This document shows, piece after piece, positions 847 to 24,824 of a DNA stretch of 28,521 nucleotides. Positions within the stretch are counted from its first letter, which is position 1. Each line of letters begins with the position of its first letter. Made by a program: the position numbers and the translations under genes. The DNA comes from a virus, in the IMG/VR virus record IMGVR_UViG_3300023176_002675, positions 1 to 28,521 of that record. The stretch is one strand, 5' to 3'. The notes beneath the pieces are model-generated. The model was not told where the DNA came from. It ran no database searches and worked only from the letters and a program-made list of their open reading frames with translations.

Positions 847-856
847 TACTAAATAG
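847..856 (+). promoter_or_regulatory. Promoter-like motif before riboswitch
   Basis: TACTAAATAG is identical to 340-349 and ends 9 nt before the first riboswitch stem. It overlaps TATACT (845-850), which could also serve as a sigma70 -10 box, though the matching -35 region (TTTAAG) is poor. Either way transcription would begin close to the aptamer. Inference from position and repetition. Confidence 0.35.
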
Positions 857-863
857 TTTTATA

Positions 864-912
864 ATCGTTCAGCCATAAGGGCCGGAAGTAGGTAATACCG
901 AAGGAACGCACC
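864..912 (+). ncRNA. Glutamine riboswitch (glnA/Downstream-peptide type)
   Basis: The segment has the hallmarks of the glutamine aptamer family. P1 is CGTTC (866-870) pairing with GAACG (904-908). A short P2 is GCC (872-874) with GGC (880-882). The conserved CGGAAGTAGG follows, then a small P3 GGT-AAT-ACC (891-899), and CGAAGGAACG closes the structure. glnA and Downstream-peptide RNAs are known glutamine sensors, the latter ahead of short ORFs in cyanobacteria and marine phages. Here a 64-aa ORF starts 25 nt after the aptamer. CACCT (909-913) can pair with GGGTG (930-934) across the AAGGAGG ribosome-binding site, which suggests translational control; that last point is inferred. Confidence 0.85.
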
Positions 913-936
913 TAACTTTTAACTAAGGAGGGTGAC

Positions 937-1131
937 ATGGATAGACACTCATTTATGCTCAAACAATATTCTGAGCAACAAACTCGTAAAAAGAAGGAAA
1001 TGGAATTATGGAGAGCTCGTCAAGAGGTTGAAGTAAATGCCAATGGTACTTCTGGATACAAGATAAAAGAGGGTGCTAACAAGGATAGGATCCTTGCTCA
1101 TAACAGCATCAAGTCAACAAATAATTGGTAA
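937..1131 (+). CDS. Riboswitch-controlled small peptide, 64 aa
   Basis: ATG at 937 follows an excellent Shine-Dalgarno sequence (AAGGAGGGTGAC) immediately after the glutamine riboswitch. The 64-residue product is charged and helical at its N-terminus (MDRHSFMLKQYSEQQTRKKK then EMELWRARQEVEV), with a Gly/Asn-rich C-terminus ending NSIKSTNNW. There is no signal peptide or membrane segment. In cyanobacteria glutamine riboswitches control glutamine-synthetase inactivating factors, which are also small and basic. I see no convincing alignment to them, so a role in modulating host nitrogen metabolism is only a hypothesis from the regulator. It converges with the minus-strand gene ending at 1132. 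Confidence 0.75.
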   Translation: MDRHSFMLKQYSEQQTRKKKEMELWRARQEVEVNANGTSGYKIKEGANKDRILAHNSIKSTNNW

Positions 1132-6267: not shown

Positions 6268-7758
6268 TTAGTATACACTCACACCATACTTCCGAGCAAA
6301 CTTTTCTGCATCCTTTTTGTCATTTACCATAGGTTTTCCTTTAATGTTCAAACTAGTGTTTAATAACATAGGACACCCTGTCTTTACATACCATCTTTCC
6401 AAAAGTTCTCTTAAACCTGAATTATCACTTTTACTTACTGTTTGTACACGAGAAGTCTTGTCAACGTGACTAATAGCAGGATATTCTTCGTGTCTTCTAC
6501 AAATAGATGTATATTGCATATATGGTCCAACTGGTCCATAGAAAAACTCTTCTGCGTGTTCAGCAAGTATTACAGGAGCAAAAGGTCTATATCGTTGTCT
6601 CTTTTTAATCTTATTAACCTTGTCTTTCATATCCTTTCCTCTAGGATCTGCAAGTAAACTTCTGTTTCCTAATGCTCTAGGTCCAAATTCTGCTTTGCCA
6701 TTTGCTACACCTACTATCTTATTTGTTTTTAATTCTTTAAATAATTTGTCTACTGGATATTCTTGCTCTATGTCATATCCAAGATACGGCGTGTTCCAAT
6801 CTATATGTGTTCTTTGTTTAGCAAGAACAGCACCAATGCTTGACCCTGCATCTCCTGGATTAGGCATAATCCAAACTTTTTCGTAATGATTAAATGCACG
6901 ACTATTTGCTTTGCAATTAAGAGCACACCCACCCATTACAACTAAATTCTTACTCTTATATTTTTTATTACAATAATCAAGTATACCAGAAAACAATTCT
7001 TCGTATATTGTTTGAGTTGCGGCAGCGATATGTATTTTGTCAGTCCATTTATTATGAGATTCTCTCCACCATTTACAACCTCTATGTAAATTGTGTTTGA
7101 ATTTTATTTCAGGAAAAATCCAGTGACTATGAGGACCTAATTCAAAAAATTCTTCTCTCATTGAATCATAAAACTTTCTATAATCTCCATACGCTGACAT
7201 ACCCATTAAAATATATTCATCTTCGTTAGGAGTTAGTCCTATACGTTGTGTCATTGCACTATACCAAAGTCCTATGCTGTTAGGATACCCTTGAGAATAT
7301 ACTTTTGTAATTTCGTTTCCTTTACCTTCCCAAACAGTAAATGTTTCAAACTCTCCTATACTGTCGATACAAACTATAGTTGCATCTGAAAATCCGCTTG
7401 TGTAGTATCCTGCGGCTGCATGACTTTCATGATGGCTACTGTAACTAATGGGTGCATTAATGCCATATTGCTTTAAGTAGGTTTTAATATTATTAATATT
7501 CCAATTCCAACCTTGTCCAGCATATAATTGTCTTAGTGTTTTCTTAAAAGGTTTTTCATACCAAACTACTTCGTCAGGTTCTCCCCATTGCCTTGCATAA
7601 TCTAACAAAGATTTATTTAGGTGAGGATCATTTTTCAATCCGCTGAATCTCTCAGAATGACTTGCAAACAGTAATTCTAGTTTTGAAAAAATACTGTCCT
7701 TTTGAAACACTGCCAAAGAAGCATCGTGGCTGTTGGCACTAATTCCCCAAATTATCAT
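6268..7758 (-). CDS. Carbamoyltransferase, NodU/CmcH/TobZ family
   Basis: At 496 residues this is a near-complete O-carbamoyltransferase. The N-terminal Kae1-like domain opens with IIWGISANSHDASLAVF and carries the metal-binding histidines HHESHAAAGYY (109-118). A further ATP-binding region follows at VVMGGCALNCKANS. The C-terminal YrdC-like domain has FGPRALGNRSLLADPR and ends with MLLNTSLNIKGKP. These enzymes move a carbamoyl group from carbamoyl phosphate, through an adenylate, to a sugar hydroxyl. Probable substrates are sugars made by the GT islands or a nucleotide sugar. It stands between primase and helicase, 3 nt after the DUF2061 gene. Homologues are known in marine T4-like phages; the acceptor is not established. 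Confidence 0.93.
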   Translation of the reverse strand: MIIWGISANSHDASLAVFQKDSIFSKLELLFASHSERFSGLKNDPHLNKSLLDYARQWGEPDEVVWYEKPFKKTLRQLYAGQGWNWNINNIKTYLKQYGINAPISYSSHHESHAAAGYYTSGFSDATIVCIDSIGEFETFTVWEGKGNEITKVYSQGYPNSIGLWYSAMTQRIGLTPNEDEYILMGMSAYGDYRKFYDSMREEFFELGPHSHWIFPEIKFKHNLHRGCKWWRESHNKWTDKIHIAAATQTIYEELFSGILDYCNKKYKSKNLVVMGGCALNCKANSRAFNHYEKVWIMPNPGDAGSSIGAVLAKQRTHIDWNTPYLGYDIEQEYPVDKLFKELKTNKIVGVANGKAEFGPRALGNRSLLADPRGKDMKDKVNKIKKRQRYRPFAPVILAEHAEEFFYGPVGPYMQYTSICRRHEEYPAISHVDKTSRVQTVSKSDNSGLRELLERWYVKTGCPMLLNTSLNIKGKPMVNDKKDAEKFARKYGVSVY

Positions 7759-22851: not shown

Positions 22852-23696
22852 CAATTAGCGTAGTGACAACATTTCATAAAAAAGGTTATGAAGATTATGG
22901 CAAAAGAATGATAAAAACATTCTTAGAAAATTGGCCAAGTGAAATAAAGTTATATGTATATGCTGAAGATTGTGAAGTAACTGAAACAGCACCTAATCTT
23001 ATTGTTAAAGATTTACATCAAGCCAGTCCAGATCTAGTAAAATTTAAAACAAAATGGAAAAATGTACCAAAAGCAAACGGCGACGTTAGTGACGATCCAA
23101 TAAGAAGTAAAAGAAGAGATAGCGGAAAAGGTTTTAAATGGCACGCCATACGTTTTGCACACAAAGTTTATTCAATTTTTGCCTGTGCAAAAGAATGTAA
23201 TACAGATTATTTAATGTGGATGGATGCTGACACAGTTTGTCATTCACCGATTAGCAAAAAAGCGTTTAATACCTTGTTTCCAGTAGATGCTGAATTAATG
23301 TATCTTGGAAGAAAAGGCAAATATTCAGAGTGTGGATTGTATTCTATGAAACTAGGTGCAGAAAATGTTCAAAAATTTCTAAGTGAGTTTCAACGTGTAT
23401 ACGATGAAGCAGAGAATGGAATATTTTTAATGGCTGAATGGCATGACAGTTTTGTTTTCGATGAAGTTAGACGTAAATTTCCTCATATGAGACAACATAA
23501 CTGGGCTGGCCACTTAACTGACCTAAGACCGAGACCTGGATACTCATCTGGAGAGGGGCACCCTTTGATAAATTGTGAGTGGGGAGCATACCTTGATCAC
23601 TTGAAAGGTGATAGAAAACGTGCAGGCGTTAGTAAGCGAGAAGATTTAAAGGTTATGAGAACCGAACCCTACTGGGTAAATCAACTAAAATCATAA
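22848..23696 (+). CDS. GT-A-like glycosyltransferase (copy 2), DxD motif
   Basis: ATG at 22848 shares four bases with the preceding stop (ATGA); an upstream TTG at 22833 would add five residues without support. The 282-residue protein mirrors the one at 16576-17328: KGFKWHAIRFAHKVYSIF, LMWMDADTVCH with D126-x-D128, and GKYSECGLYSMKLGAENVQ. The rest, including EWHDSFVFDEVRRKF and the Gly/Pro-rich PRPGYSSGEGHPLINCE, is typical of a GT-A domain with a lid region. It probably transfers a sugar from an NDP donor; acceptor and linkage are unknown. The gene converges with the radical-SAM gene by 6 nt. Confidence 0.82.
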   Translation: MTISVVTTFHKKGYEDYGKRMIKTFLENWPSEIKLYVYAEDCEVTETAPNLIVKDLHQASPDLVKFKTKWKNVPKANGDVSDDPIRSKRRDSGKGFKWHAIRFAHKVYSIFACAKECNTDYLMWMDADTVCHSPISKKAFNTLFPVDAELMYLGRKGKYSECGLYSMKLGAENVQKFLSEFQRVYDEAENGIFLMAEWHDSFVFDEVRRKFPHMRQHNWAGHLTDLRPRPGYSSGEGHPLINCEWGAYLDHLKGDRKRAGVSKREDLKVMRTEPYWVNQLKS

Positions 23697-24824
23697 AATT
23701 ATATGACCAACGTCAAGTTTGTTAATAGCAGTTGGTCCTTTCCAGTCGTGTTTCCAATAAACAAAGTCACTATTTGATACTTCACGGTATTGATACCTAG
23801 TAGGACAATGATCTAACATAGGTAATCCGTTGTTAATGAACGCATCTCGAGTAATTGTTTGATGAACGAAGTTAGTTATAGGTCCATCATAGAACTGACA
23901 CCACGGACCTGTGGCTAATTCTTCCATATCGATATTTGTTTTATCGGGCCATTGAATTAAGCGAAGTACTATGTTGCCCCAAGACACCATAATATGATAA
24001 GGATTGTCATCTCCCCATACTAATTCGGAATGAATTTTAATATCATCGCCTAAAATACTTTTTATTTTCTTAAATAACGCACTCAAGTAACTTCTATGCT
24101 TGTCTAAACTTCTACCAATGAAACTTCCGCAGCGTAATCTAAAATGATTTATGTGCTGGCTACTTAATCTTTGAATTTCTTCAAGAATAAATGGAACTTC
24201 ATCTAAACTTTCCATTGTATATCCAACATATGCGATATAATAGTCTTGTTCTTTTAAATTTTGTATTGCATCTAGCTGTTTGTTATGAACAATTTCGCCT
24301 TGATAGTTAGGATGATTAAGTCCAACGCATAAATGTCGCAATCCTGCCTCATAAACGTTTTTTGTAAATTGTTTTGATGCAAATCTAAGCCCATTAGTAA
24401 GCAAACTTATATTAGGATGTTGTAGTTCGCTTAGTTTAGCACAAAATTCTACAAAATCAGGTCGCAGTGTTGGCTCAGCTCCAGCAATCATAGGAGTACA
24501 ATCAGCGGGAAATTGTTTTACTCGTTGTAGAATCTCATCAATTGGTTTATCTTGAATTTTATTGTCTGGTAAATGGTAACAATGCGGACAATTCAACTGA
24601 CATCTGTCAGATGCTTCAAACAATATATGTTTTAGTTCAGGAATGTATCTTCTATGTTCTAAAGAATAATAAAATTCAGGATCTATTTCAACAATACTGT
24701 GTTGTTCTCCGTGCTCATGGCATTTTTTATACATTTTAATCATGCCTTCGTGTTCATATACTATTGCAGGTATATGTCTATAACACTCATCGCAAAGACT
24801 AACTGTATCGTGAATATGCAGCAT
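23691..24824 (-). CDS. Radical-SAM enzyme with N-terminal Cys-His domain
   Basis: The [4Fe-4S] motif C75-x3-C79-x2-C82 (RCQLNCPHCYH) is intact, followed by the GGEP-like AGAEPTLRPD (about 114-123), which contacts SAM, and SLLTNG. A separate N-terminal metal-like module has C11-x2-C14 and C35-x2-H38-G (KKCHEHG); this 'lC..C......C.eHG' start is found in MJ0619-like enzymes, the group of archaeal lipid-crosslinking radical-SAM enzymes. Late WCQF and HCPTRY cysteines could bind another cluster. At 377 residues it is a complete enzyme that generates a 5'-deoxyadenosyl radical. The 11-nt gap after an FkbM gene puts it at the end of a glycan operon; the substrate is unknown. Confidence 0.88.
   Translation of the reverse strand: MLHIHDTVSLCDECYRHIPAIVYEHEGMIKMYKKCHEHGEQHSIVEIDPEFYYSLEHRRYIPELKHILFEASDRCQLNCPHCYHLPDNKIQDKPIDEILQRVKQFPADCTPMIAGAEPTLRPDFVEFCAKLSELQHPNISLLTNGLRFASKQFTKNVYEAGLRHLCVGLNHPNYQGEIVHNKQLDAIQNLKEQDYYIAYVGYTMESLDEVPFILEEIQRLSSQHINHFRLRCGSFIGRSLDKHRSYLSALFKKIKSILGDDIKIHSELVWGDDNPYHIMVSWGNIVLRLIQWPDKTNIDMEELATGPWCQFYDGPITNFVHQTITRDAFINNGLPMLDHCPTRYQYREVSNSDFVYWKHDWKGPTAINKLDVGHIIL

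Follow-up and report, generated by a model that had tools for sequence, protein, structure and literature searches.

The window, that is, the whole stretch of DNA analyzed here, is a virus record of 28,521 bases (IMG/VR IMGVR_UViG_3300023176_002675), and the features of the locus under study are listed in Table 1. A search of the whole window against Rfam 15 (cmscan) returned two matches above cut-off, the first to the glutamine-I riboswitch family RF01739 (E 5.4e-10; model positions 1–53) and the second a tRNA, and a separate search of the same record gave E 1.3e-13 for RF01739. Helices P1, P2 and P3 are all present together with the conserved J2/3, no broken pairs are marked in the alignment, and C909 is also present. 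By covariance model, this segment is a glutamine-I aptamer, and it is predicted to bind glutamine. A sequence-only reading of this DNA had described, at 864–1131, a phage glutamine riboswitch with an essentially complete core and, after it, a gene for a small peptide whose ribosome-binding site is strong, and all of this is borne out: the aptamer scores well above the family cut-off over the full model, AAGGAGG precedes the 64-residue ORF, and the coordinates are correct. Its suggested check against the Downstream-peptide family gave a different outcome, RF01704 not being among the two above-cut-off matches in the window. The same record encodes a Nol-like carbamoyltransferase and a radical-SAM protein (6268–7758, 23691–24824), along with DnaB-like helicase, primase and UvsW-like helicase genes.

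Table 1. Features of the riboswitch-peptide locus (positions within the window).
Feature	Position	Strand	Basis
Presumed T4-late-type promoter box ACTAAATA	848..855	+	Last base 10 bases before first aptamer pair (866)
Glutamine-I riboswitch aptamer	864..912	+	RF01739, 56 bits, gathering score 35
Aptamer P1, then P2 and P3	866-870/904-908	+	
Predicted anti-Shine-Dalgarno hairpin	909..934	+	CACCU 909-913 with GGGUG 930-934, plus inner stem
Shine-Dalgarno sequence	925..931	+	Sequence
64-residue peptide gene, family A (phrog_32989)	937..1131	+	ATG start, AAGGAGG upstream, conserved family

The box upstream of the aptamer, which we take to be a late promoter element of the T4 type, occupies a narrow range of positions. 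TAAATA ends 6–10 bases 5' of the aptamer in all 68 loci of the peptide family in which the aptamer was found by pattern (redundant loci included), and in a non-redundant set, made up of the viral loci collected by then and filtered slightly differently, it occurs at the same spacing in 61 of 63 loci versus 32 of 4792 background positions. Within the window the pattern WNTAAATA is depleted (15 observed vs 38 expected); one copy, at 341–348, precedes a gene at 380, and the copy in Table 1 precedes the aptamer. The spacing of T4 late promoters would place the start of transcription 1–5 bases 5' of the aptamer, and since the box ends so close to the first paired base, a late mRNA probably starts at the aptamer itself. 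A sigma-70-like match at 836–865 (10/12) was set aside as the promoter of the peptide gene, as the predicted start lies inside the aptamer, which would remove the 5' strand of P1, and the region holds four such matches where 2.0 are expected by chance. A study of pelagimyophages reported riboswitches as absent and its late-promoter prediction as unsuccessful (PMC7029224).

The sequence after P1 points to a translational expression platform. The hairpin at 909–934 folds at −9.5 kcal/mol (z −2.93), and the complete leader (862–960) is of ordinary stability (z −0.89). A helix of at least 5 bp between the post-P1 tail and the region toward the start codon can be formed in 80 of 107 viral loci, versus 54.7 ± 2.6 (maximum 65) when tails are permuted among loci (1000 permutations, a null in which relatedness among loci remains), and at a threshold of at least 4 bp the count is 81 of 107 (permuted mean 61.2, maximum 70). 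The 107 are the non-redundant aptamer loci with a usable start codon among those collected by then, leaving out 19 first members of tandem pairs, four loci without a recognized start and three that were truncated; 24 of them have no tail helix by the strict test. The helix partners covary (CACCU/GGGUG, CACCU/AGGUG, CACUU/GAGUG and CACCC/GGGUG), and longer covarying helices are also found (CAUCU.../...AGAUG and CACUC.../...GAGUG). RF01739 is thus found in a 5' leader with a predicted anti-Shine-Dalgarno platform.

In the solved glutamine-I aptamer, glutamine inserts G23 into P1, where it pairs with C60 (PMC11477058), and this long-range pair is also described in PMC6698751. C909 is the positional counterpart of C60, would form the linchpin pair with J2/3, and is at the same time the first base of the anti-Shine-Dalgarno arm. 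Competition of the glutamine-bound and anti-Shine-Dalgarno states for this base suggests an ON switch, as published for the cyanobacterial members (PMC6316151, PMC6698751), and the element appears to be a translational ON switch. A late promoter would yield an mRNA starting at the aptamer; without glutamine the C909–U913 tail would pair with the last part of the Shine-Dalgarno region, keeping translation low, while in the presence of glutamine C909 would be drawn into P1, weakening the hairpin, so that the 64-residue peptide would be made. Against this account, C909 directly contests just one outer pair of the hairpin, and the ON direction is drawn from distant relatives, which leaves room for the same peptide to be governed by an OFF switch, or by action on transcription or mRNA stability. 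We regard such an arrangement as quite unlikely: no terminator-like sites were found between 700 and 1300, the covarying helix covers the Shine-Dalgarno region, and the published members are ON switches.

The peptide matches phrog_32989 (E 7.6e-12 over residues 7–52), a PHROGs family annotated as of unknown function. It carries a net charge of +5, and the conserved core of the family, here called family A, is the C-terminal part around NGT..Y..K.G.N. In four of five comparisons dN/dS was 0.08–0.14, one of the four, with dS 3.7, being close to saturation; no value was obtained from the fifth. A match to solved structures was found only at chance level (E 4.2), and the AlphaFold model is poor (pLDDT 64.5).

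A wide scan found relatives of the peptide encoded at 442 viral loci, from which the best 80 were kept, many being repeats of contigs already in the set; 75 of these have at least 140 bases upstream. The aptamer lies upstream of the gene in 68 of the 75 by pattern and in another three (L217, L250 and L251) with an enlarged P3, giving 71/75, while it is absent at L230, L233, L253 and L254. These four loci could be taken as a sign that the aptamer is a functionless fossil or a chance match, but the significance of the match in the window, the presence of the aptamer in nearly all relatives, its narrow spacing from the promoter and the covarying platform make this highly improbable. In a first set of 41 fetched viral records carrying peptide relatives, 29 have RF01739; among the other 12, four (L033, L039, L041, L042) start inside the gene, seven (L043–L049) are more distant homologues, 45–52% identical, and L034 has a sub-cut-off aptamer at 2869–2978 (30 bits) with a P3 region of 70 bases. 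By eye the P3 hairpin of L034 resembles a tRNA T-arm; ARAGORN gave no tRNA there. In L217, L250 and L251 (aptamer starts at 1827, 1839 and 1839, respectively) the P3 loop holds a reading frame of 30–33 codons, both versions of which start MFNIYEK, so that the riboswitch appears to contain a nested gene.

Relatives in a phage collection (E up to 1) all belong to Pelagibacter phages, 17 records out of 17. Plasmids gave no relative at E 0.1. The host of the window phage is probably SAR11. The closest relatives of its UvsW-type helicase, at about 55% identity, are in jumbo phages, Phosso and Atu_ph07 among them, and the window phage is therefore not established as close kin of the isolated pelagiphages. 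In HTVC008M the homologue (L002 2451–2617) is unannotated, lies between the gene for a DNA end protector and baseplate genes, and has a reading frame that appears to be interrupted.

Homologues of the peptide are also encoded by the bacteria. Six SAR11 contigs were found in a scan of genome contigs, and a profile search of 197 genomes, taken from the family of one of these contigs, found family A in 151, some homologues being on contigs of over 1.3 Mb. By sequence the family A peptide and a small protein encoded on SAR11 chromosomes are homologues; a direction of gene transfer between phage and host is something we infer. RF01739 was found in three of the 197 host genomes, each time directly before the family A gene and in one case at 777 kb of the contig, with search filters that lose some weak matches.

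The neighborhood was read at 116 host loci (six from the contig scan, 30 from the profile search and 80 further profile matches; L255 and L265 are the same place), neighbors being recognized by short sequence motifs. A sufA-like gene lies 6–83 bases upstream on the same strand in 62 of them, which makes co-transcription likely, and a convergent glnA lies downstream in 58, all of which have sufA upstream. The distance to glnA is within 13 bases in 36 of these loci and 254–798 bases in the other 22. Four loci have sufA and no glnA, and for two of them the stretch is no longer than 3,000 bases. Gene order is in general conserved in SAR11, a point that counts against reading much into the glnA neighbor. 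GlnA was confirmed by profile in one example, L379 (TIGR00653, 648.9 bits, cut-off 429), and the best match of a 40-residue sufA fragment was to TIGR01997 at 32.5 bits, below cut-off. The arrangement with sufA raises the alternative that the peptide serves the Suf iron-sulfur pathway and that the glnA neighbor is incidental. This we consider improbable, as it leaves the glutamine riboswitch in phages and in three host genomes unexplained, and no sufA was found beside the gene in the other 54 of the 116 loci.

All 51 host loci without sufA or RF01739, which comprise 37 distinct leaders, fit the pattern of a tandem pseudoknot. One example, L268 1422–1474, and the 36 other distinct SAR11 leaders have a predicted RNA with two consecutive H-type pseudoknots before small-peptide genes. 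Pseudoknot 1 has at least three pairs in 37/37 leaders and at least four in 22 (at least three pairs in permuted sequences: mean 17.8, maximum 27), and pseudoknot 2 has at least four pairs in 37/37 (permuted, at least three pairs: mean 13.7, maximum 25). In an alignment of 14 sequences (A4), 98% of cells pair, compared to 21–31% in slid controls. Seven of the 18 pairs change on both sides, a number reached by 21 of 500 shuffles, and the covariation score was reached by none of the 500; the number of further pair types was not above that of shuffles (496/500 as high). A covariance model built from the leader gave matches in 21 of 118 host genomes under strict filters (E 0.01); 14 of the matches precede family A, six precede another peptide and one (G064, E 0.004) neither, and no match was obtained in the phage sequences tried (the window, L009, L170 and L174). 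A known Rfam family for this leader was sought and discarded: in L255–L260 the leader had no match up to E 5, and at a further six loci the ten listed matches all fall elsewhere. A survey of RNAs in Pelagibacter published in 2009 lists motifs other than this one (PMC2704228). At loci with their own leader, neighbors were read by eye and no nitrogen gene was recognized adjoining family A.

A second host peptide (host family B), the one that follows six of the tandem pseudoknots, is encoded by seven of the 197 genomes, none of which bears family A; the seventh, G111, is a weak match (E 1e-4) with no leader seen. In a single profile comparison it matched the family B peptide of Pelagibacter phage Mosig with probability 90.3 and E 1.4e-6 (34% identity over 41 columns), and the corresponding value for family A against family B was 1.2. 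A profile search with phage family B found nothing in the 197 host genomes, nor did tblastn of the host peptide find a relative in phages, and the kinship of phage and host family B, judged from these sequence profiles, is held with moderate confidence. In podophages, A (HTVC019P) and B (HTVC103P) precede one common downstream gene that is 80% identical, and RF01739 is absent from both settings. In three settings, then, families A and B appear to be interchangeable. Most simply read, the two would have a single role in common, and the signal sensed by the tandem pseudoknot would be that of the glutamine aptamer. Since A and B are each preceded by RF01739 in phages and by the tandem pseudoknot in hosts (for B given only moderate homology), and since family A stands under RF01739 in three host genomes, it can be speculated that SAR11 runs its glutamine economy through small peptides of families A and B, that many of these are controlled on the chromosome by the tandem pseudoknot as a third glutamine riboswitch class, and that phages carry the same peptides under glutamine-I at a late promoter to seize control of nitrogen; as a whole we consider this rather unlikely. 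A response of SAR11 to nitrogen limitation without PII has been reported.

The glutamine signal, the glnA neighbor and the way A and B stand in for each other together point to a role in glutamine economy. The reading we prefer, although we give it slightly less than an even chance, is that a late-promoter mRNA with a glutamine ON switch delivers a SAR11-type peptide of glutamine economy, most likely one restraining glutamine synthetase. The peptide would be the phage relative of the SAR11 small protein and would restrain the enzyme, or act beside it, when glutamine is plentiful late in infection. Taken separately, glutamine synthetase is the target we favor, though tentatively and well short of an even chance. 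Here glnA is convergent and lies outside the operon, the family A gene reading as the last after sufA, and the peptide has no sequence kinship to known inhibitors; both points weigh against such a role. Counting against the preferred account more generally, seven known pelagiphage records (HTVC008M and six others) carry the peptide with no RF01739 at the locus or in the whole record. During infection by HTVC022P and HTVC027P, host glnA, gltB, gltD and amt mRNAs rise (PMC12753301), and HTVC027P encodes a relative of the window peptide, so it is not evident that glutamine synthesis is simply shut down.

The sequence-only reading had regarded the peptide as a possible nitrogen-metabolism effector by analogy with the cyanobacterial glutamine-synthetase inactivating factors. 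The link to nitrogen is upheld, indirectly, by the leaders and by host homologues beside glnA, while kinship with IF7/IF17 is not: the peptide had no Pfam match up to E 10, no NCBIfam match up to E 0.1 and no BLASTP match up to E 100 to an IF7 sequence. DUF4278, the Pfam family that covers the N-terminal part of IF17 (PMC6316151), is thus likewise without a match. Both the inactivating factors and the window peptide are small and positively charged, and IF17 is glutamine-switched, but they have no detectable sequence relation and the conserved core of family A is C-terminal; they serve as a working analogy only.

A further possibility is that the switch works as described and the peptide is a late factor for morphogenesis, packaging or lysis, with glutamine as a timing signal. 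The late-type promoter box is in keeping with this, as is the placing of the gene in several podophages among small genes before the DNA maturase, and lysis timing has been speculated upon for the riboswitch of Melnitz, a Methylophilales phage (PMC9004378). The chromosomal homologues of 151/197 SAR11 genomes are difficult to reconcile with a function in the virion or in lysis, however, and we hold this explanation to be unlikely, if worth keeping in mind. The preferred account, a peptide of glutamine economy, suggests that phage and SAR11 host share a nitrogen regulator so far unnoticed. SAR11 bacteria rank among the ocean's most abundant cells. A literature search, in which few subscription journals and preprints were covered, found neither the peptide nor its homologue in hosts nor the tandem pseudoknot described. 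A small protein that adjoins glnA and stands under a phage glutamine switch and a second host RNA would make the control of glutamine synthetase in SAR11 directly testable with few purified parts.

Compared to cyanobacterial RF01739 elements, such as the gifB leader, the window switch has the same aptamer core and three-way junction in a 5' leader with a small protein downstream, and ON behavior is assumed to be common to both. It differs in lying in a phage, the kin of whose peptide point to SAR11, beside a late-type box, and in that its peptide is not related by sequence to DUF4278/IF17. Downstream-peptide (glutamine-II) RNAs also precede very short conserved ORFs, of 17–100 residues (PMC2864571), but are a different RNA class with other peptides. 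Glutamine riboswitches of phages were known before, being already in print in PMC9004378 and in cyanophage papers; the peptide system described here was not found in the literature.

A pattern scan of viral contigs for the aptamer found at least 120 stretches, and at 116 of 127 aptamer sites surveyed among the collected loci the aptamer precedes a predicted ORF with a Shine-Dalgarno-like sequence. These 116 ORFs are all of 78 residues or fewer, six being frames of 15–16 residues between tandem aptamer copies, and their clusters include one of the window type, with 35 members, as well as YRG/DUF4278-like peptides and basic peptides some 30 residues long; the clusters were built by short-peptide BLAST, so the family numbers are rough. 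One YRG-type phage peptide that was scanned matched DUF4278 at E 0.00098 (19.9 bits, below the cut-off of 25.3). At L052, L055, L069, L074 and others, viral contigs carry glutamine aptamers in tandem ahead of short ORFs. Nine phage records were scanned, and RF01739 is present in Mosig and Melnitz and absent from the other seven. These two phages of streamlined marine bacteria have the same RNA family as the window phage and differ from it in the gene that follows, which in Mosig is Mosig_00116 (51 residues, family B). In Melnitz the aptamer (L170 2505–2553) is followed by an ORF of 32 residues that has a ribosome-binding site; the ORF (aptamer and ORF together, 2505–2674) is unannotated, the record having an opposite-strand CDS there, and the annotated SsrA gene overlaps the aptamer. 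The Melnitz riboswitch was assigned to the tmRNA (PMC9004378), an assignment that the ORF after the aptamer puts in question.
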